The notes under the pieces were generated by a model. That model was given only the letters and a program-made list of their open reading frames with translations. It searched no databases and was not told the DNA's origin. Made by a program: the position numbers and the translations under genes. Of a stretch of DNA of 64,000 nt, positions 1 through 54,704 are shown piece by piece (within the stretch, counting starts at the first letter, position 1; the number at the start of each line of letters is the position of its first letter). This DNA is from Antedon bifida (Eukaryota > Echinodermata > Crinoidea > Comatulida > Antedonidae). The stretch lies in contig OY727099.1 in the NCBI GenBank assembly GCA_963402885.1, forward strand, positions 20,727,001-20,791,000, in the 5' to 3' direction.

Positions 1-3000
1 GTAAAACACCATCGATATCACTGAGATCATTATTGTTAATATATAGCTCTTGTAGTTCAACGTTATCTCTTACATCATAGGCTTTGATAACTGTATTCAT
101 TCTCTCACCTGATAGTTTACAATCATTCATGTAAAGTTTACGCAGTTGAGGTGATTTATGCAAGAAAGTACCCAGAAAAGTACCATTGATGTCACTGAAA
201 TCATTATTCCAAATATATAGCTCTTGTAGTTCATAATGATCTCCTGCGTCATAAGCTGTTATTATTGTATTCATTTTCTTGCCTGATAATTTACAATTAT
301 CCAAAGAAAGTGTTAGTAGTTTAGGAGACGTACTCAAAAAAGTACCCAATGAATTACCATCCATATCTCTCATATCATTATCTCCAATATAAAGCTCTTT
401 TAACTCAGACGTATATCCTCCATAAGATCTGATAACTTCATTTATTTGTTCTCCTGATAAATTGCAGCTATGCATTAAAAGTTTAATCAGTTTCGGACAC
501 TTACTCAAAAAAGTACCAAGTAAAGTACCTTCAATACTACTGAAATCATTACCCAACATATAAAGCTCCTGTAATTCTAACCCAACTCCTACATATCCCC
601 TCATCATTTTATTCATTATTTCACCTGATACTTTACAGTAAAACATGCTAAGAGTATGCAGCTTACGAGACCTACCCAAAAAAGTACCTAATAAAGTACC
701 ATTAATGTCACTGATGTCATTATTCCCAATATAAAGCTCTTGTAAATCTAAATTATTTTTATACACTGTCATTATTTCATTCATTACGAGCCCTGATAGT
801 TTGCAATCATGCATGACAAGTTTACTAAGTTTAGACGACTTATCCAACAATGTACCCACAAAAGTACCGTTAATGTCACTGAGGTCATTTTTCATACTTG
901 TACAATTTGGTAGTTCTAACTCTCTTTTGTGATATTCTCTTCTCGTTTCATTCATTAACGCAACAGGTATTTTATAATCCTTTGATTTTAGCATATCTAG
1001 CTTAGAGGATTTACTCAAGGATCTATCCATTATAGTACTATTGATGACACTGATATCACTATTGTCATGCATATCAATTATACATAATTTAGGAGAGTTA
1101 CAGTATCCATTGAATACAGTTCCTTGTATGCCACTGATATCATTCCCAATATTAAGCTCTTGTAATTGTAATTCATCACCTTTATATATTTCGAATATTT
1201 TATTCAATACATTACCGGATAATCTGCATGCATGTATGTCAAGTATACTCAGTTGAGAAGACTTACTCAAGAAATTGCCTAGTAAAGTACCATTAATGTC
1301 ATTGATATCATTATTCCCAATATTAAGCACTCGTATTTCTGTCTTATCTGCTATATACGCTCTCATCATTTTGTTCATTATGTCACCGGATAGTTTACAG
1401 TCATGCATATCAAGTTTAATCAGCTTATGACAATTACACAAGAAAGTACCAAGACGAGTACCATCAATGTCACTGAAATCATTTTTCTCAATACAAAGCT
1501 CTTGTAATTGTAACATACTACCTGAAGACACTTTCATCATATCATTCATTACATTACCTGTTAGTTTACAATCATGCATGTCAAGTCTAAGTAGCGTAGG
1601 AATATTAATCAAAAAAGTACCAAGTAATGTACCATTTGCGTCACAGAGATTATTTTCAGCTATATTGAACATTAACATCGTTGGCGTATCTCCCTCATTA
1701 TACTCACTAATGTCATTCAATACTTTACCTGATAGATTGCAATGCATCATTTCAAATGAAATATAAAAAGGGGACATTATCATTAAAGATTGCAGTAATT
1801 TGGGCTCGATGTTAATGAGATTATTATTGTTGATATTGAGGCTGTTTATTATCAACACGCCATCCATTTTAATCCACTCTCTAATCATGTCATTCATTAC
1901 TTCACCTGATAGATTGCAATTACGTATGTCGAGTGTATGTGTAAAAAAGTATGCAATGTGTGCAAGAGTTCTTCCTTTATCACATGGTAACGTATTACAA
2001 AATGTAGTCAAATCCCCCTCGTTAAGATTTAGGCAAGCCTGTTGCCTTATAAGATCTATAAAATGACAATCACTAACTTTGTTTGAACTAATAAATTCAA
2101 TAAATCTGGTTAATGATTTTGAAACAATAGGCATATACTTAGGTTGGTTGAAATCCAAACTGCCCATATAATCCGTTAAAGCCTCGTTTACACTATCATG
2201 ATGTTCATGTTTAACGAATTGCAAGTAATGTATCAACGAACGATAAGTTGCTATGTTTTCTGTAAGCCAATGCTTTAGAAATTTACCTGCATCAGCACCA
2301 AGAAAGCCAACTGAAAAAATGTTTGCCATAATTAAATGCGAACGTTCTGTTACTACCTTCCACTCAATTTCATTTGTCAAACATTTTCTTTTACAAACAA
2401 TGTATAAATAAAACCCGACTAATGCTTCTAGTATTAATTTATGCGTAGGAATGTACATTTGACAATCGGTTTTTAATTTTGTATCTAATGGTTTTTTATA
2501 AACAAATCCCAGTTCAAGGGCCAGCTTGTTATATTTCAACACATCGTTTTCTTTAATTGGAAGTCGATTTTCTTTTAAACTATCAAGCATACACTTTCCC
2601 AATGAAAACATTGCATCTTCATATTCTGTTGGAATATTTTCAAAACCAAATTTTAAATCAAAGCCTCTTTGATGTTTTGCAATGTATTGCTTCAATACAC
2701 AGCAAATGATTTGTTTAAAAACGTCAGCATTACTTAATGGAAGTGATTCAGTCTCTTCCCAAATAATACAAACTAAAATGAGTAACAAAGGATTTTTGCA
2801 CAATTCATGTGGAAAAATATTTTTTTCACTTTCTAATTTCTGTTTAAGGGCATTACGCAATTTTGGATCTTCAATATGATGTTCAATATACTTTCCAATG
2901 GTATCTTGGTTAAATCCTTTTACTGTCACATGTAAACCACACCTTCCTATGAATTCATCTGTGTTTTTTGATCTTGATGTAAGTAGCACAACACTCTTTC

Positions 3001-3567
3001 TTAATGTCTTACCCGTAAATAGATCTAACAAGCTATCCTTTTTACAACGTAATTCATCTAAACCATCTAATAACAACACAATGTTGTTAGCATGTTTGTC
3101 TACATATTTTCTAATTAACTTAGTTTCAAGATCGGTCTTCCAACTGAAGTCTTTTAGCTGTTTTTCGATCAAATCAAAAATAGTGTCGTGTTCTTCTAAA
3201 TCGCTAACGTTCAATAAAAATATAATTTTACCTTTAAACGGAATGGGTTCTTCAAGAGATGTGCTTTTGTATGCTAAATACTTTAATAAAGTAGTTTTAC
3301 CAATGCCAGCCTCACCATCTATGAGAACTTTACAACCACTTGCTGATTTGATAGTAGATAGTAATGCTGCGAGTGTTGTTTCACTAGTTGTGTGATTGGT
3401 GCCTTTCATATTGTTATATCCTATGATTTCCAAATCCAACTCAGTGAAGACGTCTTTAATGTCGACGGTGTGTCTGCTTATCATTATTGCTGCTGCAGGT
3501 GTAAATATCCTTTCACTTTCGAACAGTTCCTTTTGTTTTTTAAGCAGATATGATTTTATTTTTTTTG
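1..3567 (-). CDS. NLR-A main exon: NACHT-LRR receptor, C-terminus beyond the left edge
   Basis: Reading the minus strand from 3567 I find one frame open to base 1 (about 1,190 codons), so the exon continues outside the window. The intron ends TATTACAG at 3568 and the exon starts in phase 1. A NACHT NTPase follows: Walker A GEAGIGKT at about residue 84, Walker B LLLDGLDEL at about 164, then a sensor-like VVLLTSRS. A winged-helix/superhelical segment precedes about 12 double LRRs of roughly 57 residues, with consensus LQELYIGNNDISDINGTLLGT then a CKLSG half, like ribonuclease-inhibitor LRRs. By family knowledge the NACHT domain binds ATP and oligomerises when the LRRs sense ligand, in the cytosol. 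The frame is clearly homologous to NLR-B but its LRR units are more diverged from one another. I infer that its N-terminal DED lies on the exon at 20355-20906. No break is visible. Confidence 0.93.
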
Positions 3568-3890: not shown

Positions 3891-5331
3891 GGCATATTAT
3901 TTGATCTCTGGTGCGCGTGCGTACAATTGAGGGACTAGTGCTGTTCCGCCGTACCACGTCGAGAGTGTTAAAGAGTCGCTAAATATAGAGGTTTTTGCAA
4001 TTAAAATGCCATAAAAGCAATAAAAATAGTGAAAAGGGGGCAGAAATGATAACAAGATTAAAATGTACCTTCATAAGCGAAAGCAACATCAATGCTATTC
4101 TATAGATCTACGGGACACCTATAGGACCCAACAAAGCGTGGACCCCTTAATAGGAATTTCCCCCAAATAGGTATTGATCCGCGGCGTTTCTCTTCGTTTC
4201 TTTCAGAGTACCACCTGAATTAGGATGTCCTAATATACAGTATAGTACATTTCTAATAATATCTGTATATTACACAGCTAAAAGAGTACCCTTAGCAATT
4301 TCAATGACCAATCTCAATTCTATAATAATTCTAAATAATTAAAAACTGATTTCTTTCAAAGTTTTAACATGAATAGGCACTACAATAAAAGACATATCTA
4401 CAACATTCATATCAACTTTTAGCATTCGTTACCATGTAATGTTTTTTCACAGATTTCTTAGTCCAAAAGCACATACAGTAGGCCTATCTGCATACTTACA
4501 TACTTATTTTAAACAAAACAACTTGCATTATAAAGTGTTTTTTTTTTATCATTGGTGTAAACAACACAGTAATGAGTTCTGTTTAAAACAGAAAACAATT
4601 TAAAAAATGGAGTTTGGTTGATACTATTATTTTAAAAAGGGGTGTTTTTCAATTTAATTTTTTTTTATAAAAGTATACATCATAATCGAACCTATAACTT
4701 CCAAAGTGTTGTTTTTACTTAATTTATTTACTGTATTTTGATGGAAATGATAGGTTTATCAAAAAATCTAATTGTTTACCTTAGCAACTGTATCTATGCG
4801 TAACTAAGAAAAAGAAAAGGTAAAAAAAAATTCATGAATGCAAATAATTGATTGCATTCAAATAAGGTATGCCTACTAATAACCTACAAATTTTTATTTG
4901 TATAAAATTGATAGCCTATGAAAATTATCACAATATCTAAATTTGACATATAATATTACTATAACAACTGTTGCTATGCATAACTAAGGAAAAAATGTGG
5001 GGTTTTCATAAATACTATTAATAATTTATTACATAACACTTCTTCTGAATCCAACAATCGCATGAACAAGTCTGATTTTCTGCTTATATTATGATATATG
5101 TGACTATTTAATTAAAAGTTGTTTATTTTTGTTAATTTCTGCATTTATTTGTCTCATTTAATATTAAGTTTCTACTGTATACTTATTTGGAGCTCGATGC
5201 AGTATTCTTTTTTTTTCTTTTATTATCTTTTATTAATATCATCTAAACAAATTTTTATTTTATAGTAAAATTAGTAAAACCATCAAATTGACAAGGTAAA
5301 AATGATTAAAGTAATTTGAAAATACTAATTA

Positions 5332-5803
5332 AAGCCTGGTTTCCATAAAGCCCGGCGCACACTAGAGCTTCCGGCTGAGCCAACGGGCACGAGTAACACT
5401 TGCTTCACAGTGTGCGCCGGGGATTTCGTGAGGAATCGGCCACGCGTGCCGCTGAGGAAAATATCTATCGTGTTTAATATTTTTTGGCACGCGTGCCATT
5501 TTCCTCAAGTGTGCGCCGAACGTGAGCTTCCTGCTCACTAAAAAATTCCACTGCGCATGACATGTTCTGATTTATTATGATATTTCAGCGCGTGCTGTAT
5601 AGCGTAGTAAGTAATTATCCAATCAGAAAATCGCGTACTGAAGGCGTTTAGTGTGCGTCCGATAGAACGCGATCATAGTTTGCGGCAAATTTTTTAGTGA
5701 GCCAAGTGTTACTCGTGCCAGTTGGCTCAGCCGAAACCTCTAGTGTGCGCCGGGCTTAACATCGCTACACGACAGAGCGTAGCGATTTTATGGAAACGCT
5801 AGA
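5332..5803. mobile_element. Two nested MITE-like DNA elements
   Basis: The inner element, about 5348-5757, has terminal inverted repeats of 50 to 60 bp beginning AAGCCCGGCGCACACTAGAG and continuing through a GGCTGAGCCAAC motif. It sits inside a second, shorter inverted structure whose ends read CCTGGTTTCCATAA on the left and, in reverse, CTAGCGTTTCCATAA on the right. No coding capacity is seen, so both are nonautonomous. The superfamily is not determined. Confidence 0.7.
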
Positions 5804-6358
5804 ATTTATCGGGGATCTAGTACGCGAGCGCTAAATATTCTTTGGTACGCGTATACAAAATCGGCAAAGTTGAACATAGTAGTATCAAAGAATTTATAAC
5901 ACAAGAATCTCCTGTTCGTCTGAAGCGCGTAACAATTTCGAAAGGCATTGTGGGATAGAATAGAGCTAATGGGTGGCGCCATTGTGAGCCATGGAGTAGG
6001 GCGCCCGCATCAAATTAGAAAGTCAAAATCATACAGGGGATCTGCTAATAGTCTAGGGGTGGGGGGGGGGGGGTGGTAAAGTAATTGACTTCCTAGTTTG
6101 GAGGGGGCGCTGCTCCATGCTGTGAAATGGCGTCGCCCAGTTTGACCTTTTAACCCTGTACTTCTGATACTGTGTTTTGAATGCAAATTGAAGAACAGGA
6201 GATTCTTGTGTTATAAGTTCTTTGATAGTATATAAGGATGTCGTGGCATCTCTTAGATATTCGTGTCCACTCAGTTGATCTAGTATTGGTCTAGTGGCAC
6301 GTATCAATATATTCATTATCATTGAAGTTTGATTCAATTAAAACAAATGAATGTATAC

Positions 6359-6466
6359 CTTCTTTTGTTTTCCGTTTACGGTGTTTCGTTTTCCGTCTAC
6401 CTCGATGTCTTTTCTTTTTGGGTTTCGTTTCACTGCTACAACTGGAATCACTATTTGAATCGGAAT
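6359..6466 (-). CDS. NLR-A basic linker exon (copy 1), NLS-like
   Basis: On the minus strand a good acceptor (pyrimidine run, TTTTAG) precedes 108 nt that end GAAG followed by GTATAC. The exon enters and leaves in phase 1, the same phase as the DED-exon donor and the NACHT-exon acceptor, so it can be included or skipped without changing frame. It encodes 36 residues: a serine/aspartate start (SDSNSDSSCSSE) then KKKRHRGRRKTKHRKRK, which looks like a strong nuclear localisation or nucleic-acid/acidic-lipid binding cluster. It lies between the DED exon and the NACHT exon. Its use is inferred from splice signals and phase only; no transcript evidence is available. A near copy lies at 7915-7998. 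Confidence 0.68.
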
Positions 6467-6659
6467 CTAAAACAAAATATTAAAAAAATATTAATATTGC
6501 TTGTTTTTTTAATATTGGTAATAGGTAACAAACTGCCTAGCTTTTCATTTGGGTTAATATTCCGTTTACTACACCCATGGTTAATGTATTTCAATGAATG
6601 ATTAAAGATTTATTTTACCACTGAAAAATATTTTGTTATCCTTTTTTGTTGTTGAATAT

Positions 6660-6860
6660 GTCATTTTAATGTCACATAATAGTTATTCACTTTAACCAAA
6701 TGGGTTCTTTACCTGAAAAATCATAATTTAAAAGTATATATGTATATCAGACAATGAGTTTTTAGTTAAAAATTTCTACAGCAATTAATAACTTTGTCAT
6801 AACTACAAAATGTGTCTATTCAAAGTCATGTCTTTGGAGGGCAATACATCTTTACTTATT
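6660..6860. repeat. MITE family remnant (ends ..ACAATACATCTTTA type)
   Basis: It shares ATAATAGTTATTCACTTT and an end reading GGGCAATACATCTTTA with the better copy at 36437-36790. It is truncated and diverged. Confidence 0.45.
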
Positions 6861-6943
6861 TGTTTAAAAAAAATTGTAATGTTAATTGCTTTATCTTTAG
6901 GTATCAACTTTAAAATATTGATTCCAATTAATTTCTTAACTTA

Positions 6944-7210
6944 GTTACTAAACAACTTTGTGCGAAGATTGAAAATGATATTTTAACAGTATTTGCTAGT
7001 CGTAAGATAGGTGACACCTTAAACCCAAAAGAAATGAAACTCAGAATCATTAATTCACAATGCGTTGTGTACAAATTTCAATGTGGTTTGTGTGATGCAA
7101 ACTATGTCGGTTACACTTGCCGACACCTTTACAAACGCATTAATGAACATAACAAAAGTATTATAGGCGATCACCTAAAACAACATGGCATAACTGGTGA
7201 TATCTCATAA
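6944..7210 (+). mobile_element. Penelope-like element fragment: GIY-YIG endonuclease end
   Basis: The plus strand encodes about 88 residues, ending in TAA at 7208-7210, with KIGDTLNPKE, CVVYKFQCGLCDANYVGYTC and HLYKRINEHNKS. The CxxC-anYVGyT-R-L-RI-EH pattern is the C-terminal GIY-YIG nuclease of Penelope-like retroelements, which nicks target DNA during integration. Only this 3' coding end is present; the reverse transcriptase is absent, so it is a truncated relic. It sits in the NLR-A intron in antisense orientation to the gene, between the two duplicated basic exons. Confidence 0.78.
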
Positions 7211-7786
7211 TACTTTACTTATTTGGAGGTCGATGAAGTATCTGATTCTTTTTTCTTTAATTATCCTTAACTAATATCATCTAAAAAATACTTTTTGTAA
7301 AGTTAGTAAAACCACCAAATTGGCATTGTACACAGTATTAAGTAATTTGAAAATACTAACGAAATAGGTTCTCTAATTTTGTCACAAATAATAATAGTTA
7401 TTATTTATAGCGCCCAGCGTAGGTTTTCCCGGTTGGTTGTTATCTTCAGCTCGACGGTAACCCGTTTTAGTTGTTGACTTATTTATAATAACAATATTTA
7501 TTATTTTTAATTAATAATTATTTTCAATAAATATTATTGTGTTTGAAATAAAAAGCATAATAAAAAACAATAAAGCGTGTTTCTTCTTGAGTGAGCTTAC
7601 AGCCTTCTGACTAATAGTATCGAGAACATTGTTCGGGTTGCTCATTTTAGTAATAGGCTACGAACCCGGGTTTGAATAAGATATAAACACTTTCCTAACA
7701 CTAACGGGGTTGTTTTTGGCAGTGTAAAAGTAGTATATAGGTAAAAAACTGCCTTATTTTTAATCTTATTGATATGTTAACATATA

Positions 7787-8070
7787 AAGAGGTCGTGGTA
7801 TCTCTTAGATATTCGTGTCCACTCAGTTTAAAAGTCTATTATTGGTCTAGTGGTACCTATCAACTTATCAATTATTATTGAAATTTGATTCCATTAAAAC
7901 AAATGAATGTATACCTTCGTTTGTTTTCCGTTTACGGTTTTTCGTTTTCCGTCTACCTCGATGTCTTTTCTTTTTGGAATCACTGTTTGAATCGGAATCT
8001 AACAAAAAAATATAACAAAATATTAATATTGCTTGTTTTTTAAATATGTTTAATAGGTAACAAACTGCCT
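7787..8070 (-). repeat. Duplicated exon-plus-flank block (partner 6225-6500)
   Basis: Both intron flanks of the 7915-7998 exon match the flanks of the 6359-6466 exon. TCTTAGATATTCGTGTCCAC and ACAAATGAATGTATACCTTC occur in both, and both continue past the acceptor into similar AT-rich sequence ending near GGTAACAAACTGCCTAGCTT. The linker exon was therefore duplicated as a genomic block, not converged upon. Confidence 0.85.
7915..7998 (-). CDS. NLR-A basic linker exon (copy 2), NLS-like
   Basis: The layout matches the exon at 6359-6466. The acceptor is TTTGTTAG, and 84 nt in phase 1/1 end GAAG before GTATAC. It encodes 28 residues: SDSNSDS then KKKRHRGRRKTKNRKRKTNE. Compared with copy 1 it lacks 8 codons of the SSCSSETKP part, exactly in frame. 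Both copies keep splice sites, phase and basic cluster while the flanks have diverged, which argues for use as alternative or additive linkers. Function (nuclear targeting or charged tether) is inference. Confidence 0.65.
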
Positions 8071-8390
8071 AGCTTTGCTTATCCGGTGATCATTTATTCA
8101 AGTAAATCTATAAGTAATAAATAATATCAATAAAACCAGGTAAGGTAGGATGGAATTTAGATGAGATTTGAAAAACTGAAATAAATAAGCATTCACATAA
8201 TATAACGATTTTTATTATATTTGCCGCTATCAATTAAAAGGTTACCGTACTGATTTAAGTCGATAGTTTAGTAATCTAATGTTGGTGTAATGAGTTTTCG
8301 TTAGAAGATTGCAGAAAAGTTATAAGTATGCGGCAAGTTTCTAGTTTATTTACATATTGGTATAGTGCCACCATAATTTTTTTAACATAC

Positions 8391-8432
8391 CTTCAGTAAG
8401 TTTTCTTTTTGGTTCACTGCACAACCTGGAAT
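8391..8432 (-). CDS. NLR-A small linker exon (copy 3)
   Basis: These 42 nt on the minus strand lie between an acceptor AATTTAAG and a donor GAAG followed by GTATGT. The phase is 1/1, as for the other linker exons. It encodes 14 residues, including CSEPKRKLTE. It resembles the middle of copy 1 (CSSETKPKKK) with a much shorter basic part. The acceptor has a weak pyrimidine tract, so usage is less certain. Confidence 0.5.
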
Positions 8433-8879
8433 CTTAAATTTTCAAAAAGAAAAACTAATGCTATTACATAACTACTGTACTACATAGTCTATAAAATTGA
8501 GGAGTAATAACATTTATATAGCGCCAATTCCTAAAATATAAAAACCCTTTGCACGAGTTTAAATGTATATTACTTAGTAAATGCATCTATTTTGTTGACT
8601 TTCGACTGATAGGTATTTGGTACATAATACTGTTATTGAAGATTATCGGTCATTATCGCACAGTAGATTACAACAAACTGCCTTATTGTTTCTTTAGTTG
8701 ATTTTTATGCTTTATGGATTTCATCACATCTTTAGTTAATAAATACGCATGTGAAAATGTCTCAATCCAATCTGTTGATAGCCCATTATTGGTCAGGATT
8801 TCAACGTATTAATGTAATCATGACATTGAAGTTTAAACATTATTATTATTTTGTTATTATATTAAAATTATATTTAAAT

Positions 8880-8937
8880 CTTTCTCTTTTCCATTTAGGT
8901 TTACTGCTACAATAGGGAAAACTCTTTGAATAGGAAT
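8880..8937 (-). pseudogene. Decayed relative of the basic linker exon
   Basis: After an acceptor ATTTTAG on the minus strand, the sequence follows copy 1 codon by codon (SYSKSFPYCSSKPKWKRER against SDSNSDSSCSSETKPKKKR). The usual GAAG-GT donor is missing. An alternative phase-1 donor GTAAAC exists inside it, after about 33 nt. It is either a dead copy or one using the new donor. Confidence 0.45.
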
Positions 8938-9960
8938 CTAAAATGTTAAAAAAAAAAATAAATTCTTCCGAGTCAACAGTACTAAGGAAGAAACGTTTGT
9001 GTCTATGTGTTTCACTTAAATTAGTTTAGTAGTTTAGATCGGTCTGCCTCATAGGTTTATTGCATATGTGTTTGTGTAGGATGATCATGCAGCTAACGAT
9101 TTATGATCTACTTAGAGTACGTTTGTATTTAACGATTACCCAATTAGGTGTATGGTTTTCGGCCGGCCGGGGCGGACCCCTCTGGGATTCACCCAGAGGT
9201 ATTCAAGAAATAACTCAGAGAGGGCGCATGTCACAACAACATCACGTGACTATGCCATGATCAGTGTCGGCAAACCAAGCTAACACCACTACCTTAAAAA
9301 AGTGCGATGCTAACGCACGAAATGTTGGTAAGTTTCAACGTTTATTTTCACCTTCATGAAAAACGAAAATTTGATTTCAAAAATATTTTGGGAAGAAGAT
9401 GAATTTTTTCAATTTCAACCTCGTTATATTAGGTGTGGGGTTATTGTGTTCCAGGGCGAGGCATTCACTTCATAGCCGTCTTAACACGAGCACTATATAC
9501 TTTCGCTGAGCACAATTTCCCACCTCCACCCCTTACTCCATCCGTATTAGGACACGATTTCTGGAGTATTGCCTTTTTGGCACCTACTATCGAGCATTTA
9601 TCATTATATCATTTATATCTAACTTTATATGATTGATGTTAACTACGATGTTTAACTAATTTTAGCTTCCCGTTAAGTTATATCTATCTATGTCATCAAT
9701 TAATTTACTGTAAACAGATGTGATATTTATAAGTATCATCTGTACTTATAGCACAGGTATGCAATTAGCACCCTGTGTGATAACCACAGTATCCTGTGTA
9801 TAACCACGCCCAATATTACTAATCATTTTATACTAGTAGATTAGAATACGTTTAGTTACTTTCACTTGTACATTGAACATCGAACAATAAAGATCATATT
9901 ATTATTCAACTACGTCTCGTGTATATTTTAAAAGTTTACATTTACTAACAACACTACGGT
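8938..9960. other. Intron stretch without recognised gene
   Basis: Short open frames near 9060 and 9433 show no recognisable domain. The stretch from about 9719 has long-terminal-repeat-like composition with an AATAAA just before the Gypsy relic, but I cannot fix its ends. Confidence 0.4.
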
Positions 9961-12400: not shown

Positions 12401-12419
12401 TGAACAAACCAATTAAATT

Positions 12420-12864
12420 AGAACTGCAAAACTAGAAGGGAAAGATTGGCATAAAGAGTTCTCAAATTTTCTATTTGTTTATCGGACAACGCCTCATGCG
12501 GTTACGGGGGAAAGGCCTGACGTGCTCCTTATGAAGCGTGAGCTAAGAGATAAATTACCTCAAATTAAATTTGATTGTAAACTTGTTGAATCCGATTGGG
12601 AAGAGATGGTTCGAGTGCGCGATATGTGTTGCAAAATGCGGCAAAAGCAATATGCAGATACAAAGCGTAGAGCTGTACCATCTGATGTACAACAGGGTGA
12701 TGAGGTAATGCTTAGGTTTAACCAGAAACCAAATAAATTGTGTTCACATTTTGAAGTTGATCTATAGGATGTTATAAGTAAAGAAGGTAGTGCTGTTATT
12801 TTGCAAAACACTAAATCTGTGGTAACTAAAATGAGAAATGTATCTCAGGTAAAAAAGTGAGGAT
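12420..12864 (+). mobile_element. Second Ty3/Gypsy fossil, integrase C-terminal part
   Basis: It encodes a recognisable late integrase stretch (FVYRTTPHAVTGERPDVL, then a QYADTKRRAVPSDVQQGDEV motif). It is cut at 12865 by a Tx1 LINE; the continuing flank after the LINE is at 16239. Broken fossil; number of breaks small but not zero. Confidence 0.75.
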
Positions 12865-13773
12865 AACAATGTATCATTTCGAAGGGGCAATAATTACCTT
12901 AGATTTTAAGAAGGCTTTTGATTCTATTAGTAGAGATTTTATGTTCAATGTTCTAGAAAAGTTTAACTTTGGAATGTTCTTTTGTAACTGGGTAAAAGTA
13001 TTATATAATAACGTTGAATGTGTCACAGTTAACAATGGTTGGGTTTCAAACAATTTTAAAATGGAAAGAGGTATTAGACAAGGTTGTCCTCTATCTGCTC
13101 TGTTATTAATTGTAGTGGTCGAAGTAATGGCATTTAGAATAAGAAACAAAGATGACTATAAGGGTATTAAACTTCCAAATATTGAAAATAACATAGAAGC
13201 TAGAATAAGCCAATTAGCCAATGATACTGTTTTGTATGTTGGTAATGACAAAAGTATTAAGTCAGAGCAGTCAGTGTAATTGAACTTTTTTGTGAAGTAT
13301 CTGGAATGACACTAAATAAAAAAAAACCAATGCTTTTTGGATTGGTAAATGGAAGAACAGAATAGATAGGCCTTTAGAATTAAATTGGGTAAAACACCTG
13401 ATCAAAGTTTTAGGCATATATGTAGAGTATAATACAGAAGAATGTACCAGAAAAAACTGGGATGTTAAATTAATAGAGCTAGAAAAGACTTTGAAACAAT
13501 GGAATGCTAGAAATCTCTCAATTTTTGGTAGAATAATAATCCTGAAAAGTCTTGCACTATCTAAATTAACATATGCTGCAAATATCACTGATGTTCCAAA
13601 ATATGTATATACACAAGTTACAAATCTAATATATAATTTTATTTGAACAATAAAAGGGAAAAGATAAAAAGAAAAACTCTAATTGGTGATAATGAGATGG
13701 GAGGCATTAAAATGCCTGATTTTACTCTTCATGTTAACGCACTCATGTGTGGCTGGTTAAAAAGAATTATGAA

Positions 13774-14722
13774 TGACTAGAGGGTTCGCTCGCTTCGCTC
13801 GCGCACCCTCTAGTGGGTGTACCCGAAGGGTTCTCGAAAACATGACCAACGCCTCTGGAAATTGAAGCCTGGGTGACACCTATGCATATTATGACTGATG
13901 AGTAATGCATGTTTTCTTTTTGATGCATATCTTGTTAATTTTGGAACAAAATGATCAAATAACAACTTTCGTAGCCTTCTTATATATCGGTCGTAGTAGA
14001 AACCATTTATAATTATAAATAGAGCAAGGAACAGAAATAATCGATAATATAAACAGTAAAGGTATTTCCCCGGTAGGCCTACCAGGCCTCCTATAGTAAC
14101 ATTGAATCGCACCTAAATTTGATTAAATGATTAATAAATAGCATAAATAAGTAGTTCAATTAGGCTTATTAAAACAAATTGTATTTCACGTAAAGTAAAG
14201 GCCTTTATAATTGATTAGTTGAATAATTATCTAAAACAAATAAATTGTAGTTCACGTAAAAGTAAAGGCCTTCAATAATAGTTAAATTACTAAAACAAAT
14301 TGTAGTTCACGTAAAGTAAATGCCTTTAATCAATATAATTGATTAGTTGAATATGTAAAACAAATTATAAATTGCAGTAGTTCACGATACGTTGAATCAC
14401 TAAAATATTTGTATTTAATATTGTAGTTCACGATACGTTGAACCACTAAAATATTTGTATTTAATATTGAATGTCGCCACCAACGGCCATTTTGCCCGGG
14501 AAGTGACGGACCCGGAAGCCAGTTAAACAACAGCGCGAGTGTGTGAAAATAACCCTGTGATATCCACAAATTTCGATAGGTAACGCTAAATTTTGTCGTT
14601 GTAAAAGACAAAAATGAAACAATAGCGTCGATGTGAAAACTAATGTTATCAAATCTACGTTTCGCGGTACATCTGAGATAGATAAGGTAGGTATCCAAGG
14701 CGGAGATTTGTACTGAAGTTTT
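13774..14722. mobile_element. Unclassified insert with a terminal hairpin inside the Tx1 LINE
   Basis: The LINE frame stops at KRIMND near 13773 and resumes as YVRINHNLYIDDG near 14723, so about 950 bp are inserted without an evident target duplication. At its left edge lies a 10-bp stem (ACTAGAGGGT / ACCCTCTAGT) around a loop rich in CGCTCGC repeats. Inside, AAACAAATTGTAGTTCACGTA-like motifs recur about five times between 14160 and 14430. No transposase is seen. A hairpin at one end with CTAG and no target duplication is Helitron-like; this is tentative. Confidence 0.5.
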
Positions 14723-15109
14723 TGCATTGTGCTCGCCTATGTCAGAATTAACCATAATTTATATATAGATGATGGTGCTAAATGGAAAAATATTCCAATG
14801 TATTATATTAAAAAAATATGTGATGTTAATGTTTTACTTAATATGTCATGTTATAGCATTATTGATGTTAATTCATATAAAATTCCACTGTTTTACAAAA
14901 ATATGATAAAAGCCTACATAAATTATAACAGAATCTCTAAAAAAAACCTGAAACTTATAACGATATAATGAATGAGCAACTGTGGGGAAACCACTACGTT
15001 AAACTAAAAAAAAAAATCGCTTTTCTACAAGCATTGGATTGACAGTGGCATTGTCAGTATTAAAGACATTGTTAATAAGAACACTTTTTTAACATCAAAC
15101 GAAATACTG

Positions 15110-17863: not shown

Positions 17864-17923
17864 CATTTACTCTTCTGGGGGTCGATGGCCTTTCTGCGTC
17901 TTCATCGTGGTCCTCATTATCAT
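17864..17923 (-). CDS. NLR-A acidic linker exon
   Basis: On the minus strand the acceptor GATTTCTAG is followed by 60 nt and the donor ATG-GTAATT, again in phase 1/1. It encodes 20 residues, starting DDNEDHDEDAE and ending PSTPRRVN: an acidic run then a proline/arginine tail with a possible TP phosphosite. It lies 2.4 kb downstream of the DED-exon donor and upstream of the basic exons. Spliced in order, the linker would read DED, acidic, basic, NACHT. Clean splice sites and matching phase support a real exon; usage is unproved. Confidence 0.6.
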
Positions 17924-20354: not shown

Positions 20355-20906
20355 CTGTAGATTTACTCAGTAGGCCTAGTTCTTCCTGTGCTCGTTTTCC
20401 AAGAAGATTTGCAAACTCATTTAACTTTTCAGGTAAAATATCTTCCTTCTCCAAATGAAATATTACATCCCAGAGACGTGTATAATTAAACCTTTTAAGT
20501 TGATAATTTGCAGTAACCCTCTGTAATGCAGCAGGAGATTCTGATTGTATAACAGCATTAAAGAGTCGTTTTCGGTCTGACGACAATTTACTTTTGTCGG
20601 TATTTATAATATTGTTATCTTTCATATAATGAGTTACAAGACGTTCAGCTTCTTTTGGACCTGTGAGTGCTGTGATCTCCAACAACAGTTTGACATCATT
20701 ATGTGAGATAACACCACGGCCATCAAGTGTATTGAATAAATCATGTGCAATAATAGTTCCATCTGTAAGGTATGTTAGTGGTAAAATATCAAATAAGCAA
20801 AATTTCAGTAACTTGTAGTCTTCAGCTTCATAATGCTTACTGAGTTCAGCTTTCAACTCTCTAAACTTAATTTCAAGGTCTGACATTTTTCAAAGTACGT
20901 GTTGCT
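20355..20906 (-). CDS. NLR-A N-terminal exon: death effector domain
   Basis: The ATG at 20886 follows 20 nt of leader after an acceptor TTTTTGCAG, so at least one upstream 5' UTR exon exists. The exon has 532 coding nt and ends at a phase-1 donor ACAG-GTAAAG. Residues 8-90 form a DED: helix 2 has DYKLLKFCLFDILP, helix 5 VKLLLEITAL, and GPKEAERLV occupies the RxDL-like place. Residues about 115-172 form a second helical segment (LWDVIFHLEKEDILP...LLGKRAQEELGLLS) of unknown fold, perhaps a degenerate second DED. DEDs bind other DEDs (caspase-8-like, FADD-like). It is paralogous to 54149-54704. I infer splicing to the linker exons and to the NACHT exon at 3567. Confidence 0.82.
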
Positions 20907-43586: not shown

Positions 43587-46500
43587 CTATATCTCATTAA
43601 ACAAGTCAATCGAACGAATAATCATTTCTCTCTCATCGTCACTGATATCATTATTGTTAGTAAACAATTGCAATTCTTTGGGTTTAACTCTGATCAAGGC
43701 ATTCATTACATCATCTGATAGTTGGCAATTATTCATATCAAGTGTACGCAGTTTAGGAGAGTTATTCAGTAAAACACACAGTAGAATAGCGTCAATGTCA
43801 CTGAAGTAGTTATTCCCAACAGAAAGCTCATGTAATTGTAACTCGTCTCTTGCAAACGCTCTGATAATTTCATTCATTACATCACCCTGTAGTTTACAAT
43901 TATTCATGTTGAGTATACGCAGCTTAGACGAGTTATTCAAAGTACTTCCTAGTAATGTACCATCAATGTCACTGATATCATTATTTCCAATGTCAAGCAC
44001 TTGTAATCCGCTTGCATACATTCTACTTACAACGTTACATGGTAGTTTACAATTATTCAATTTAAGTACACATAGCTTTTGTGACTTATGTAATAAAGTA
44101 CAAAATAAAGTACCATCGATGTCACTAACATTATTATTGTTAACATGAAGCTCGTGTAATTTTAGCTCATCATTTGTATATACTTTGATCATTTTATTTA
44201 TAACGTCACCTGATATTTTACAATTAACCATGTAAAGCTTAAGCAGCTTAGAAGACTTACTTAAAAACGTACCAAGTAGAGAACCATCAACGTCACTTAT
44301 ATCATTATTAGCAATGGACAACACTTGTAATTCTGACTGATCTCTTGCATACGCATCCATTAATTTATTTATTACGTCACCTGATAGTTTGCAATAATGC
44401 ATGCGGAGATCACGCAACCTAGGAGACTTATCTAAGAAAGTACCCAATAATGAGCCACTAACGTCACTTATATCATTATTCGCAATGGACAACACTTGTA
44501 ATTCTGACTGATCTCTTGCATACGCATCCATCATTGCATTCATTACGTTACCTGATAGTTTGCAATAATGCATGCGGAGATCACGCAACCTAGGAGACTT
44601 ACCTAAGAAAGTACCCAACAATGAGCCACTAACGTCACTTATATCATTATTCGCAATGGACAACACTTGTAATTCTGACTGATCTCTTGCATACGCATCC
44701 ATTAATTTATTTATTACGTTACCTGATAGTTTGCAATCATACATGCGAAGACGACTCAACCTAGGTGACTTACCTAAGAAAGTACCCAGTAATGAGCCAT
44801 CGACGTCACTTATATCATTATTCGCAATGGACAACGATTGCAATTCCGACTGATCTCTTGCATACGCATCCATCATTGCATTCATTACGTTACCTGATAG
44901 TTTGCAATCATACATGCGAAGATTACGCAACCTAGTAGACTTACCTAAGAAAGTACCCAGTAATGAGCCATCGACGTCACTAATATCATTTTTCGCAATG
45001 GACAACGATTGCAATTCAGACTGATCTCTTGCATACGCATCCATCATTGCATTCATTACGTCACCTGATAGTTTGCAATCACGCATGCGAAGATCATGCA
45101 ACCTAGGAGACTTACCTAAGAAAGTACCCAGTAATGAGCCATCAACGCCACTTATATCATTATGTGCAATGGACAACACTTCTAATTCCAATTGATCTCT
45201 TGCATACGCATCCATCATTGCATTCATTACGTCACCTGATAGTTTGCAATCATCTATGTAAAGTTCAAGCAGCTTAGGAGACTTACCTAAGAAAGTACCC
45301 AGTAATGAGCCATCGACGTCACTAATATCATTTTTCGCAATGGACAACGATTGCAATTCAGACTGATCTCTTGCATACGCATCCATCATTGCATTCATTA
45401 CGTTACCTGATAGTTTGCAATCATGCATGTGAAGATTACTCAACCGATGAGACTTACCTAAGAAAGTACCCAGTAATGAGCCATCAATGTCACTTATATC
45501 ATTATTCGCAATGGACAACACTTGTAATTCCAACTGATCTTTTGCATACGCATCCAAAATTGTAATCATTACGTCACCTGATAGTTTGCAATCATCTATG
45601 TGAAGTTCAAGCAACTTAGAAGACTTACCTAAGAATGTACCCAGTAATGATCCATCAACGTCACTTATATCATTATTCGCAATGGACAACACTTCTAATT
45701 CCGACTGATCTCTTGCATACGCATCCAAAATTGTATTCATTACGTCACCTGATAGTTTGCAATCATGCATGTGAAGATTACTCAACCGAGGAGACTTACC
45801 TAAAAAAGTACCCAGTAATGAGCCATCAACGTCACTTATATCATTATTCGCAATGGACAACAATTGTAATTCCAACTGATCTTTTGCATAAGCATCCAAA
45901 ATTGTATTCATTACGTCACCTGATAGTTTGCAATCCTGCATGTGAAGATTACTCAACCGAGGAGACTTTCCTAAGAAAGTACCCAGTAATGAACCATCGA
46001 CGTCACTTATATCATTTTTCGCAATGGCCAACGATTGCAAATCCGACTGATCTCTTGCATACGCATCCATCATTGTATTCATTACGTCACCTGATAGTTT
46101 GCAATCATATATGTAAAGTTCAAGCAGCTTAGAAGACTTACTTAAGAACGTACCAAGTAGAGTACCATCAACGTCACTTATATCATTATTCGCAATGTAT
46201 AACACTTGTAATTCTGACTGATCTCTTTCATACGCATCCATTATTTTATTTATTACATCACCTGATAGTTTGCAATCATACATGCGAAGATCACGCAACC
46301 TAGAAAACTTACCTAAGAAAGTACCCAGTAATGAGCCATCGACGTCACTTATATCATTATTCGCAATAGACAACACTTGTAATTCTAACTGATCTCTTGC
46401 ATACGCATTCATTATTTTATTCAATACATCACCTGATAGTTTGCAATCATGCATGTCAAGTGTATGCAGCTTTGGAGACTTATTTAAGAAAGTACCCAGT

Positions 46501-49500
46501 AATGTACCATCAACGTCACTGATATCATTACTATAAATTGAGAGCACTTGTAAATCTATCTCATCTCCTGCATAGACTTTCATCATTTTATTCATGATAT
46601 CACCTGATAATTTGCAATTTTGCATGTAAAGTTTAAGTAAATTTGAAGACTTGTTCAATAAAGTACCAAGTAAATCACCATCAATGTTACTTATATCATT
46701 ATTCCCAAGATTAAGCAATTGCAGTTGTAACTCGTCTGAAGTTGCATATATTCTAATCATTTCATTAACTGTCTTCCCTGATAAGCTGCAATTGCACATG
46801 TTGAGTATATGGAGGTTAGGAGACCTACTCAAGTAAGTACCAAGTAAAACACCATCAACGTCTCTGATATCATTATTCCCAATATAAATATCTTGTAATT
46901 CTAAGTGATCTCTTGCATACGTATCCATCATTTTATTCAGTACGTCACCTGATAGTTTACAATCATGCATGACAAGTTTACTTAGTTGAGAAGACTTACG
47001 CACAAAAGAACCCAGTAAAGTACCATTGATGTCACTGATATCGTTTTTCATAAAATTGTAGTTTTGAAATTGGGACTCTCTTTTTGCATACACTCTGTCC
47101 ATTTCATTCATTACAGTATGATCCTTTATTTCGTCCATTTTTAGCTTGGAAGGTTTACTCAAGAATGTACCCAATGAAGTACCGTCAATTTTTCTGACGT
47201 AATTTTTCTCTTTATCAATTGCTTGCAATTGGGTCTCATCTGATGTATTGCCATCATGGAGATCATATATACGCAGCTTAGGAGAATTACTCCAGAAATT
47301 ACCAAATAAAAAACCGTCAATGTCACTGATATCTTGATTCCCAATATTAAGCTCTCGTAATTGCAGCTCATTTCTCTCATTCAATTTAATCATTAATTTA
47401 TTCAGTACTTCTCCTGATAGATTGCAATAATGCATGTCAAGTATACTCAGTTTAGGAGACTTACTTAAGAAAGTACCAAGTAAAGTACCATCAATGCCAC
47501 TGATATTGTTATTCCCAATATCAAGCACTTGCAAGCCTGACCTATTCGAGGGCAATTCATCTCTTATATACACTCTCATCATTTCATTCATTACGTCACC
47601 CGATAGTTTACAATCATGCATGTCAAGTTTTATTAGCCTATGAGCATTATTAAAGAAATATCCCAGAAGAGCACCATCAATTCCACTGATGTCATTTTTC
47701 TCAATACAAATCTCTTGTAATTCACCCCCAGTATAGACGTTTATCATTTTATTCATTATGTCACCTGATAGTTTGCAATCATGCATGTCAAGTGTTAGCA
47801 GCTGAGGAATTTTCCTTAAAAAATTACCTAGTGAAGTTCCATTTATGTCACTGAGATTGTTTTTAGCGATATTAAGCATACATATTTGTATATCTCCTTG
47901 AATGCTAATGTCATTCATTACTTTACCCAACAAATTACAATCAATCATCTCAAATGAAAGGTAAAGAGGGGCCGACATCATTAAGTTATGCAGTAATTTG
48001 GCATCAATGTTATTGAGATTATTTTGGCTGATTATAATACGTTTTAATTCCAGCTTATCACCCATTTTAAACCACTCATCAATCATACATTTTATTATAT
48101 CACATGACAGATTGCATTTATGTAGGTCAAGTGTGGATGTAAAGAAAAATGCAATGTGTGCAAGAATTTTACCTTTAATTTCAAATGATAATGTATTACA
48201 AAATGGTCTCAAATCAAGGTCATTAAGATCCATGCTACTGAGTTGCAATATACGATGTATAAAATGCTCATTTGAATTAGAATTCGGATTAAAGTGGGCA
48301 ATAACATATTTCAATGATTTTGAGACATCCGTATGTTGATTTAATCCTGAACTAACCATGTGCTGTTGTAATGCATCTGCCACAACAACACGATATTCAT
48401 CTTGAACATATTTCAAGTTAGTATGTATCAAATAACGATATGTTGATAAATGGTCTGTAAGCCAGTGCTTTAGGAATTTACCTGCATCAGCACCAAGAAA
48501 CCCGACTGCAAACATATTGGCCATTGTTAAATTCTTACAATCTGTTACTACATCCCACTCAATGCCCCTTGAATCTTTTTTACAAAGTGTGTATAAATAA
48601 AACCCTACTAGTGATTCTAGTATTAATTTGTGTGTAGGCATGTAAATTCCACTCTCAGGTTTAGATCTTGAACTTAATTTCTTTTCGTATACAAATCCTA
48701 GTTTAAGGGCCATGTCAACCATTTCTATATCTCCAGTAGCTTTCAAATCATTCTTTTTGATTGAAAGTTTATTTTGTTTCAAACTATCATACATACACTT
48801 TCCTAAGGAAGACATAGCATTTACAAATTCTATAGGAATATATTCAAATTCGATAATGTTGTCTTTATGTTCAATGGAATGGTTTGTATGTATGCTAAAT
48901 ACACAGCAACAATTTTGCTTTAAACGATCAAAAACGCTTTCTTCATTTTTAAGATCATTATTCGGGTGGCCATGCTTGGAAATGAATTGATTTATTATGC
49001 AGCGAAATATTTCTTTAAAAAGGTCGGCATAATTAGATGGAAGATTTGTTTTGTCTTCCCAAATATTACAAATTGAGAGAAGTATCAACGGATTTTTGCA
49101 CAATTCTAAAACGTTTTTGTCAGCCACTAATTTTTGCATAAGGTCATTCATCTTATCACGATTGTTAAAATGCTCAGAATGCTTCTCAATATACCTCCCA
49201 ATGCTATCTTTGTTAAAGCCTTTTACTGTCACTTGCACATCAGACTCTCTTATGAATGTATCTACGTCCACGTATTCGGATCTAGACGTAAGTAGTACAA
49301 CACTCTTTTCTAATGTTTTGCCCTTAAAAAGATCTATCAACGTATCATTTTGAACTCGTAATTCATCTAAACCATCTAATAATAACACAATTTTGTCATC
49401 ATGTTTGTCTACAAATTGCGTAATCAACTTTGAATCCTTTGGAAGTTTAGTTTTTAGATTGAAATCTTCCATATCCAGTTGGTTTTCAATCAGATGAAAG

Positions 49501-49865
49501 ATGCGGTTGCCTTCTTCTAAATCCCTTACATTAAATAAAAACACAATTTTACCTTTAAACGGAATTGGTTCTTCATCAGATGTGCTTTTGTTTGCTAAAT
49601 ACTTTAATAATGTTGTTTTACCAATACCAGCCTCACCATCTATCAGGACTTTACATGAAGATTTGGATTCTATACTGGTTAGAAATGATGACAGTGTTGT
49701 TGGCTGGCTGTCTTTCTCGTTTTTATTTCTTTTTAAAAGATCCAACTCAGTGAAGACTTTCATGCTAACAGTGTATTTTGGATTCATTGTTGACGGTGTA
49801 AATTCCTGATTTTCTTTCTGGCACAATGATTGTTGTCTGTCATGGAGATACTTTTCTATGATTCC
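43587..49865 (-). CDS. NLR-B main exon: giant NACHT-LRR receptor
   Basis: The exon starts in phase 1 after an acceptor TTTATTTGTTAG and stays open for about 2,092 codons. NACHT: Walker A GEAGIGKT at about residues 79-86, Walker B LLLDGLDE at 163-170, sensor VVLLTSRS at 191-198. A helical region ends with HKLILESLVGFYLY and GADAGKFLKHWL, both shared with NLR-A. About 26 double-LRR units of 57 residues follow from near residue 615 to the end, alternating a 28-residue half (LQVLSIANNDISDVDGSLLG) and a 29-residue half with CKLSGDVMN, as in ribonuclease-inhibitor-type LRRs. At about 54 LRRs it is far longer than usual NLRs. Joined to the DED exon it gives about 2,270 residues. NACHT motifs are intact, so it looks functional apart from the question at its 3' end. 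Confidence 0.95.
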   Translation of the reverse strand, partial: GIIEKYLHDRQQSLCQKENQEFTPSTMNPKYTVSMKVFTELDLLKRNKNEKDSQPTTLSSFLTSIESKSSCKVLIDGEAGIGKTTLLKYLANKSTSDEEPIPFKGKIVFLFNVRDLEEGNRIFHLIENQLDMEDFNLKTKLPKDSKLITQFVDKHDDKIVLLLDGLDELRVQNDTLIDLFKGKTLEKSVVLLTSRSEYVDVDTFIRESDVQVTVKGFNKDSIGRYIEKHSEHFNNRDKMNDLMQKLVADKNVLELCKNPLILLSICNIWEDKTNLPSNYADLFKEIFRCIINQFISKHGHPNNDLKNEESVFDRLKQNCCCVFSIHTNHSIEHKDNIIEFEYIPIEFVNAMSSLGKCMYDSLKQNKLSIKKNDLKATGDIEMVDMALKLGFVYEKKLSSRSKPESGIYMPTHKLILESLVGFYLYTLCKKDSRGIEWDVVTDCKNLTMANMFAVGFLGADAGKFLKHWLTDHLSTYRYLIHTNLKYVQDEYRVVVADALQQHMVSSGLNQHTDVSKSLKYVIAHFNPNSNSNEHFIHRILQLSSMDLNDLDLRPFCNTLSFEIKGKILAHIAFFFTSTLDLHKCNLSCDIIKCMIDEWFKMGDKLELKRIIISQNNLNNIDAKLLHNLMMSAPLYLSFEMIDCNLLGKVMNDISIQGDIQICMLNIAKNNLSDINGTSLGNFLRKIPQLLTLDMHDCKLSGDIMNKMINVYTGGELQEICIEKNDISGIDGALLGYFFNNAHRLIKLDMHDCKLSGDVMNEMMRVYIRDELPSNRSGLQVLDIGNNNISGIDGTLLGTFLSKSPKLSILDMHYCNLSGEVLNKLMIKLNERNELQLRELNIGNQDISDIDGFLFGNFWSNSPKLRIYDLHDGNTSDETQLQAIDKEKNYVRKIDGTSLGTFLSKPSKLKMDEIKDHTVMNEMDRVYAKRESQFQNYNFMKNDISDINGTLLGSFVRKSSQLSKLVMHDCKLSGDVLNKMMDTYARDHLELQDIYIGNNDIRDVDGVLLGTYLSRSPNLHILNMCNCSLSGKTVNEMIRIYATSDELQLQLLNLGNNDISNIDGDLLGTLLNKSSNLLKLYMQNCKLSGDIMNKMMKVYAGDEIDLQVLSIYSNDISDVDGTLLGTFLNKSPKLHTLDMHDCKLSGDVLNKIMNAYARDQLELQVLSIANNDISDVDGSLLGTFLGKFSRLRDLRMYDCKLSGDVINKIMDAYERDQSELQVLYIANNDISDVDGTLLGTFLSKSSKLLELYIYDCKLSGDVMNTMMDAYARDQSDLQSLAIAKNDISDVDGSLLGTFLGKSPRLSNLHMQDCKLSGDVMNTILDAYAKDQLELQLLSIANNDISDVDGSLLGTFLGKSPRLSNLHMHDCKLSGDVMNTILDAYARDQSELEVLSIANNDISDVDGSLLGTFLGKSSKLLELHIDDCKLSGDVMITILDAYAKDQLELQVLSIANNDISDIDGSLLGTFLGKSHRLSNLHMHDCKLSGNVMNAMMDAYARDQSELQSLSIAKNDISDVDGSLLGTFLGKSPKLLELYIDDCKLSGDVMNAMMDAYARDQLELEVLSIAHNDISGVDGSLLGTFLGKSPRLHDLRMRDCKLSGDVMNAMMDAYARDQSELQSLSIAKNDISDVDGSLLGTFLGKSTRLRNLRMYDCKLSGNVMNAMMDAYARDQSELQSLSIANNDISDVDGSLLGTFLGKSPRLSRLRMYDCKLSGNVINKLMDAYARDQSELQVLSIANNDISDVSGSLLGTFLGKSPRLRDLRMHYCKLSGNVMNAMMDAYARDQSELQVLSIANNDISDVSGSLLGTFLDKSPRLRDLRMHYCKLSGDVINKLMDAYARDQSELQVLSIANNDISDVDGSLLGTFLSKSSKLLKLYMVNCKISGDVINKMIKVYTNDELKLHELHVNNNNVSDIDGTLFCTLLHKSQKLCVLKLNNCKLPCNVVSRMYASGLQVLDIGNNDISDIDGTLLGSTLNNSSKLRILNMNNCKLQGDVMNEIIRAFARDELQLHELSVGNNYFSDIDAILLCVLLNNSPKLRTLDMNNCQLSDDVMNALIRVKPKELQLFTNNNDISDDEREMIIRSIDLFNEI
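44163..46385 (-). repeat. Homogenised array of 13 LRR-pair units, 171 bp each
   Basis: Units 11-23 of the NLR-B LRR region are nearly identical at DNA level and exactly 171 bp long, while units at both ends are diverged. Differences cluster in the residues next to the LxxLxI and LxxLxM strands (ANND/AKND/AHND; MYDC/MHDC/IDDC/MRDC/MHYC). Some variants recur two units apart (for example the ATTGCAATTCAGACTGATC type near 45012 and 45354), which suggests block duplication or conversion. Confidence 0.92.
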
Positions 49866-54148: not shown

Positions 54149-54704
54149 CAGCACTCAGTAGACCTAGTTCGTTCTGTGCACGTTTTCCAAGAAGACTTCC
54201 AAACTCATTTACCTTGTCTGGTAAAATTGTGTTGCTTTCTAATTTCAATACTACATCCCAGAGGCTAGTATAATTGAAATCTTCTAGTCGATAATAAGCA
54301 GTAACTCTCTTTAATGCAGCAGGAGATTCAGCTTGTCTGACAGCCCTAAACAGTCGTCTCCTGTATGATGACAACTTATTCTTTGCAACATGTTGAATAT
54401 TGTTGTCGTTCATATACTGGGTAACAAGACGTTCGGCATCCTTCGGACCTGTTAGCTTTGTAATCTCCAACAACAATGTGACATTGTGAGGTGTGATCAA
54501 ACCAGGACCACCAGTGCTATCGAGTTTATTGAATAAATTATGACCTATGTACTCCTCATTAGTAAGGTCTGCTAAATCCAAGTAATCAAGTAAGCAAAAT
54601 TTCAAAAACTTGTAGTGTTCACCTTCATATAGCTTACTGAGTTCAGTTTTCAAGTTGTTAAATTTTTCTTCAATTTCTGACATTTTTTCAAAGTGTGTGA
54701 TTGC
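54149..54704 (-). CDS. NLR-B N-terminal exon: death effector domain
   Basis: A 5' UTR intron ends TTTTTTGCAG at 54705. After 21 nt of leader the ATG at 54683 gives MSEIEEKF, aligning with MSDLEIKF of NLR-A, so this start is preferred over upstream non-ATG options. The exon has 535 coding nt and ends at a phase-1 donor GCTG-GTATGT, which joins the NACHT exon to read ...GLLSA-G-IIEKY. Residues 8-92 form a DED (HYKFLKFCLLDYLDL; VTLLLEITKL; GPKDAERLV). Residues about 118-175 repeat the second helical segment seen in NLR-A (SLWDVVLKLESNTILP, LLGKRAQNELGLL). It probably recruits DED partners when NACHT oligomerises. Confidence 0.86.

Follow-up and report, generated by a model that had tools for sequence, protein, structure and literature searches.

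Duplicated phase-1 mini-exons as candidate hinge modules of a tandem-DED-NACHT-LRR gene family in Antedon bifida

Two short, strongly basic exon candidates, A1 and A2, are best explained, with a probability of about 0.72, as hinge exons of a tandem-DED-NACHT-LRR gene whose linker is built from duplicated and lost mini-exons. This reading is borne by the anatomy of the gene, the homology of the exons, their intact splice sites and frames and a pattern that recurs throughout the family, all documented here at the level of the genomic sequence. The hinge exons are very probably spliced into the transcript, their inclusion could with equal probability be variable or constant, and a main role of the encoded alpha peptide as a nuclear-import signal is possible at somewhat less than even odds.

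Architecture of the Two NLR Genes

The studied window, a stretch of 64,000 nucleotides (C12:20727001-20791000), carries two NLR genes, A and B, on its minus strand (Table 1); whole-genome searches covered 315.6 Mb. In a gap-free alignment with its best PDB chain (7o37_a), the COX1 encoded on contig C27 reads AAA at 4 of 4 Asn sites, ATA at 11 of 15 Ile sites and TGA at 6 of 6 Trp sites, in keeping with the echinoderm mitochondrial code; flatworms use this code as well, but the closeness of the match to vertebrate chains makes an echinoderm the likelier source. From position 3567 downward, the NACHT-LRR exon of gene A has a phase-1 start behind the acceptor TTACAG/CA, and its open frame measures 2286 aa in the genome. 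Pfam matches above cut-off were obtained for the NACHT domain of gene A (PF05729; 7e-18, 65.5 bits vs. a cut-off of 26.7) as well as for LRR_4 in the in-window part of gene A (2.9e-14) and in gene B (3.5e-66). The Pfam DED match of gene A stayed under the curated cut-off (E 1.4e-5, 25.7 bits vs. 35.9), so that the DED assignment relies on AlphaFold2 and Foldseek, and the DED-type exon of gene B gave no Pfam DED match at E <= 0.001. An AlphaFold2 model of the N-terminal exon of gene A, computed from an alignment of 30 rows consisting of own exons of the same genome, reached a pLDDT of 92.3. Its top Foldseek matches were the tandem DEDs of caspase-8/cFLIP (prob 1.00, TM 0.70, best E 3.6e-3), and no match of the model attained E <= 0.001. 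The N-terminal exon of gene A is, by this prediction, a tandem DED.

The initial annotation had described three minus-strand blocks between a DED exon with a phase-1 donor and a NACHT exon with a phase-1 acceptor. Coordinates, splice dinucleotides, phase 1/1 and peptides of all three were reproduced, and the flanking exons proved to be the tandem-DED and NACHT-LRR exons of gene A.

Table 1. Exons of genes A and B and hinge exon candidates of the gene family. Positions are those of the window; a slash marks an exon border.
Feature	Position	Strand	Description	Peptide
Gene A, predicted tandem-DED exon, coding part	20355..20886	minus	phase-1 donor ACAG/GTAAAG	
Gene A, NACHT-LRR exon	2..3567	minus	continues past the low end of the window	
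Alpha-type basic hinge exon A1	6359..6466	minus	108 nt, phase 1/1, TTTTAG/ATTCC...GAAG/GTATAC	DSDSNSDSSCSSETKPKKKRHRGRRKTKHRKRKTKE
Alpha-type basic hinge exon A2	7915..7998	minus	84 nt, phase 1/1, TTGTTAG/ATTCC...GAAG/GTATAC	DSDSNSDSKKKRHRGRRKTKNRKRKTNE
Block 3 (A3)	8391..8432	minus	42 nt, phase 1/1, TTTAAG/ATTCC...GAAG/GTATGT	DSRLCSEPKRKLTE
Alpha relic A4	about 8862..8943	minus	29 bits; acceptor and DSYSKS... start retained	
Gene A, beta-type acidic hinge exon candidate	17864..17923	minus	60 nt, phase 1-1	DDNEDHDEDAERPSTPRRVN
Gene B (neighbour paralogue), DED-type exon, coding part	54149..54683	minus	phase-1 donor	
Gene B, NACHT-LRR exon	43587..49864	minus		
Beta type, gene P			acidic then basic	DSNDDHEEDVDRPSTSKRVIHRN
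Beta type, gene C			acidic then basic	DGSCEDHEEDVEQSSIFR
Beta type, gene G (C10)			acidic then basic	DSEDDEDNRPSSSKKRK
Beta type, gene I (C8)			acidic then basic	ENVEDRASKSKKIVSRE
Gamma type			Pro/Thr-rich, 42-45 nt; P twice, J twice, E, K, F	
Delta type			genes E and P	
Exon type of 195-207 nt			C8, gene I and its twin M	

Several further features of the region and the family were noted. Open frames that by eye resemble reverse transcriptase/integrase pieces of retroelements lie within the DED-NACHT intron of gene A (window positions 12417-15847) and at positions 58014-59756 and 60520-62232. On the DNA level, the DED exon of gene A is 91% identical to that of paralogue J and 89% to that of paralogue C, whereas its NACHT region reaches only 72 and 77%, respectively, and N-terminal exons may have been exchanged or converted between these paralogues; the corresponding values for paralogue P are 77% (DED exon) and 76% (NACHT region). 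Six NACHT matches at C13:3619916-3689819, five of them equal-scoring and several about 3.1 kb apart, look like a recent tandem array.

Alpha Exons in Gene A and Its Paralogue P

A1 and A2 are identical in 81 of 84 aligned exon bases, differ in length by 24 nt in frame and sit inside longer duplicated stretches; they are homologous candidate exons, copies of each other. Block 3 had been presented as the equal of the other two, a view that does not hold: A3 combines a good donor with a poor acceptor tract, scores 11.7-15.7 bits against the alpha profiles with a match that covers part of it only, and looks like a truncated or decaying alpha copy. A4, one among four other alpha-like DNA copies of the gene A intron, is broken, and no donor was seen at the homologous place.

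The alpha exons have the structural properties expected of cassette exons, namely symmetric phase, AG/GT ends and a length that is a multiple of three. However the four hinge blocks in gene A are combined, the reading frame stays open (16/16), which agrees with the earlier proposal of insertion without disturbance of either domain and makes optional inclusion plausible. The encoded segment would be an internal hinge and not, as first proposed, a tail.

Gene P (C12:21145002-21166987), located 0.4 Mb from gene A, contains the NACHT region that best matches that of gene A (61% identity). Three alpha exons of 108, 108 and 75 nt (P1, P2 and P3) lie between its DED exon (21145002) and its NACHT exon (21165617), two of them found with alpha DNA at C12:21157009 and 21158957 and the third at 21159437. 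That the same exon type is retained in the same intron corroborates the assignment of the blocks to a DED-NACHT-LRR gene. All five alpha exons (A1, A2, P1, P2, P3), i.e., five of seven alpha copies, have retained AG/GT ends, phase and frame. A whole-genome search with a 24-nt pattern and up to two mismatches returned six places, of which five are the alpha exons, each matched perfectly, and the sixth is a place on C11 with 1 mismatch; the reversed pattern, used as control, gives one. Two whole-genome searches, which more diverged copies could escape, found no further alpha copies beyond A and P. A dispersed repeat as the origin of alpha was rejected, since the exon together with 45 nt of downstream intron matches only A and P among the best-scoring candidates. 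The 20-kb DED-NACHT intron of gene P also carries several copies of intron stretches of gene E, an arrangement that appears as if introns of paralogues had been stacked in tandem.

A Wider Set of Candidate Hinge Exons

Alpha is one type among tiny putative phase 1-1 hinge exons that occur family-wide. As candidates we considered small, open phase-1 intervals bounded by AG..GT in the DED-NACHT introns of paralogues, and a candidate was termed recognised when, judged by reading, it had a homologue in another gene or twin. Within the sampled introns, to which all frequencies refer rather than to a genome-wide fraction, hinge exons were recognised in 15 of 23 completely read cases. Of the 11 complete introns in set 1, eight contain recognised ones (A, P, C, E, F, G, I and J), with none recognised in B, D and H. 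Set 2, twelve introns from C7, C8, C12 and C16 that were hand-picked for DED and NACHT matches close together and not drawn at random, contributed 7 of 12, or 5 of 10 when two introns with earlier profile hits (C7 9.686 Mb and C12 17.9 Mb) are left aside. The set 2 introns without a recognised hinge exon are those at C16:2.797 and at C7:33.75, 33.84, 33.87 and 34.14 Mb; C16:2.797 Mb and others hold candidates without homologue. Hinge exons were also recognised in genes K (C12:21.382-21.417 Mb) and M (C8:29.21 Mb), which were read partly and stand outside the 23.

The strongly basic, duplicated alpha type is confined to genes A and P. The acidic beta candidate of gene A, which the initial annotation had passed over, finds partners by similarity in paralogues P, C and G. 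By reading, S-x-S-K-[KR] is present in 7 of 11 beta-type exons. These eleven comprise the exons of A, P, C, G and I, a pair at C7:7.59 Mb, another pair at C7:9.78 Mb, and single exons at C7:9.686 Mb and C12:17.9 Mb; the paired exons are 60 nt long and acidic, then SKRRPE-like. The gamma profile R1 matches an NLR outside its training set at C7:9.688 Mb (E 2.9e-4, 64 sources), where a beta-like exon, GGSEDECNDGETSVSKRRLE, precedes the gamma match and both lie between DED and NACHT. Five tandem phase-1 exon candidates of 45-48 nt and of DxPGTSKQ type occupy the DED-NACHT interval at C8:33.24 Mb (33.242-33.244), and three of this type are found in the twin at C8:33.28 Mb (33.283-33.286).

Chance Controls

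A filter for splice sites, open reading frame and NLS pattern returned four candidates in gene A (two exons with two ends each) vs. none in the reverse complement, two vs. two in P and two vs. one in I. As the reverse complements of P and I also score, this filter alone is weak evidence, and homology between genes combined with fewer indels than in the flanks is the stronger argument.

In a control, similar candidates were matched with one another for each of three phases and on either strand. The central part of the J intron (offset 4000-8700), which by reading resembles retroelement coding sequence, was excluded from the set 1 counts, and so was N5 at C14:11.987 Mb, a locus with listed candidates and LRR-coding sequence behind it. 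On the coding strand, set 1 yielded 26, 13 and 1 cross-gene locus pairs in phases 1, 0 and 2, the phase-0 pairs listed being intervals open in both frames, compared to 0, 1 and 4 on the opposite strand; without M, the recent twin of I, the counts are 24, 13 and 1 vs. 0, 1 and 3. Set 2, with within-gene pairs included, gave 50, 42 and 2 vs. 0, 1 and 1, a raw count in which recent twins and fragments of NACHT exons were still present. Removal of NACHT-exon starts left 48, 42 and 2 vs. 0, 1 and 1, restriction to the ten unseen introns 39, 40 and 2 vs. 0, 1 and 1, and, among these, retention of one member per recent twin group 18, 16 and 0 vs. 0, 0 and 0. A coding-strand preference of candidate homology is thus well supported by these counts. 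They do not favour phase 1 over phase 0, and the assignment of phase 1 therefore rests on the phase in which the DED exon ends and the NACHT exon begins. The cleaned recount took strength from the phase argument and from the indel figure for alpha alone described below, but not from the evidence of strand and homology.

Substitutions, Indels and Splice Site Strength

In 10 pairs, 570 of 714 aligned bases are identical in the exons and 2096 of 2629 in the flanks, i.e., the two are equally alike with respect to substitutions. Indel events, on the other hand, are rarer in the exons (12 in 714 bases) than in the flanks (146 in 2629; p 7e-6), and this also applies to indels whose length is no multiple of three (7 vs. 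117, p 2.6e-6). These p values are nominal because pairs share sequences, and the counts include non-alpha candidates chosen by a filter requiring open frames. Thirteen pairs were compared and ten summed, with A1-P2, A1-P3 and bA-bC omitted to limit reuse. For alpha exons alone, three pairs without P2-P3 have 1 indel per 300 vs. 41 per 797 bases (p 5e-5), and with P2-P3 as a fourth pair the figures become 8 in 405 and 63 in 1014 (p 0.001). When P3 is aligned, gaps that break the frame fall inside the exon, while its total length is still a multiple of three.

The six pairs of A1, A2, P1 and P2 have dN/dS values of 0.52, 0.47, 0.94, 0.79, 2.75 and 0.70, the value of 2.75 belonging to A2-P2 with one synonymous change. 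Upon random redistribution, as few or fewer nonsynonymous changes arose in 30-85% of shuffles, for which reason dN/dS was rejected as evidence, and no selection on the residues of these four alpha exons is demonstrable by either approach. Fewer indels at equal substitution is the pattern of a coding spacer, in which the frame matters more than the residues.

Tolerated substitutions and few indels would also suit a plain spacer made of constitutive hinge exons, which would give every paralogue a hinge of set length and charge and let variation arise between genes and not between transcripts. The range of recognised hinge exons per paralogue, from none (B, D, H) up to the five in tandem at C8 33.24 Mb, points in the same direction, and we place this alternative only slightly short of an even chance. 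The exons themselves, however, are of a skippable kind. Symmetric exons with weaker donors can be skipped, and on a scale of 8 the alpha donors score 5, 5, 5, 6 and 5 compared to 6-7 for eleven DED donors (7 for A3 and 5-7 for other hinge exons), a slight weakness that mildly favours optional use of the alpha exons.

Basic Peptides and the Nuclear-Import Pattern

A bipartite NLS pattern consists of two basic clusters spaced by 10-12 residues. A1, A2, P1 and P2 fit KR-X10-12-K[KR][KR], P3 does not, and 6-9% of the shuffles of each of the four fitting peptides reach the pattern as well. The monopartite pattern K[KR].[KR] was rejected as evidence because 75-90% of A1, A2, P1 and P2 shuffles match it (6% for P3). 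Net charge amounts to +9 to +10 over 28-36 residues in A1, A2, P1 and P2 and to -1 in P3. Each alpha peptide contains one CK2-like site, the pattern of which is S/T-x-x-D/E. The best reading of alpha is that of a bipartite-NLS-like or polybasic module, and the sequence does not separate import from tethering.

Instead of mediating import, alpha might be a polybasic tether similar to that of NLRP3, which would bind acidic lipids or another polyanion or would position the effector in an oligomer. The strong positive charge of A1, A2, P1 and P2 is consistent with such a role, as is the altered oligomer state and membrane recruitment upon deletion of the NLRP3 linker exon between PYD and NACHT (excerpt of PMC13226650). 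We nevertheless regard it as rather unlikely. The bipartite spacing occurs in four of the five alpha exons despite their differing sequences, an argument tempered by the shuffles that attain it, and the KMKK motif of human NLRP3 is dispensable for TGN localisation (excerpt of PMC13226650), so that the NLRP3 precedent supports the linker more than the basic motif.

A Probable Modular Hinge

That the blocks are intronic relics of duplicated intron segments and that the transcript joins DED directly to NACHT is very improbable: equal substitution conservation in flanks and exons, two further, degraded alpha copies in gene A, decayed beta-like matches in P, E and A and the 8 of 23 introns without recognised hinge exon would agree with it, but indels are fewer than in the flanks, five of seven alpha copies are intact in splice sites and frames, homology is specific for the coding strand in two intron sets, and beta or gamma exons are spread over contigs C7, C8, C10, C12 and C14.

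With A1 and A2 as hinge exons, the linker between effector and NACHT would be assembled from tiny symmetric phase-1 exons that are gained and lost among paralogues, and such a modular charged hinge would set length, charge and probably location. The Ser/Asp-rich head of the alpha peptide may provide phosphorylation sites that could gate import, and the location of the receptor would depend on which hinge gets spliced in. Taken furthest, this would amount to an NLR family with a bank of interchangeable hinge exons, in which one gene gives rise to acidic, neutral and nuclear-targeting splice forms, one sensor operates in cytosol and nucleus, and alpha of A and P is the extreme case; we consider this full version speculative and, as it stands, unlikely. 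The effector-NACHT linker seems to be the fastest-rebuilt part of the receptor family, with tiny in-frame exons being duplicated and lost. If these exons are optional, they would offer a simple genetic route to several addresses or assembly states per sensor.

Comparison With Known Systems

Echinoderm NLRs with DED or death domain, an NLS in an animal NLR and NLRs that are modular by splicing are already known. Duplicated hinge or NLS mini-exons in NLRs were not found in a limited literature search, mainly of open-licence papers, and within the reach of that search an NLR family with a bank of duplicated mini-exons for its hinge is an apparently undescribed variation on these themes. The tandem DEDs of caspase-8/cFLIP share the predicted fold of the N-terminal exon of gene A at 17% identity for the top match; caspase-8 and cFLIP are devoid of NACHT-LRR. 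Among echinoderms, 24 of 53 NLRs of Chiridota heheva contain a DED or death domain (excerpt of PMC8913654).

NLRC5 and CIITA shuttle to the nucleus, NLRC5 with a bipartite NLS (121-122 and 132-134) upstream of NACHT and CIITA with an NLS at 141-159 in addition to 405-414 and 955-959 (excerpt of PMC7922096). Both resemble the genes studied here in having a basic stretch upstream of NACHT, and only its place is alike, so that these genes are not counted among the NLRC5/CIITA-type transactivators of MHC genes: NLRC5 and CIITA feature an aCARD or activation domain in place of the tandem DED, and the available excerpt of PMC7922096 does not mention duplicated NLS exons. An optional linker insert of 11 residues with KKRK confers nuclear localisation on CaMKII-delta, gated by Ser332 (excerpt of PMC3920101). 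This kinase is unrelated to the NLRs described here and the likeness consists in the basic linker insert.

Two further parallels concern NLRP3. Its LRR is encoded by modular exons for which alternative splicing has been shown (excerpt of PMC6642158), while the modularity reported here resides in the hinge. Exon 3 of NLRP3 is a single PYD-NACHT linker exon (residues 95-134) with the KMKK motif followed by a second polybasic region, and its experimental skipping results in a shortened protein that assembles and localises differently (excerpt of PMC13226650). Like the hinge exons of the family studied here, it is a small linker exon between an effector domain and NACHT. In NLRP3, as far as that excerpt goes, one exon next to a PYD serves in oligomer formation and at the membrane, whereas here a duplicated array follows a predicted tandem DED and a role in import is proposed.
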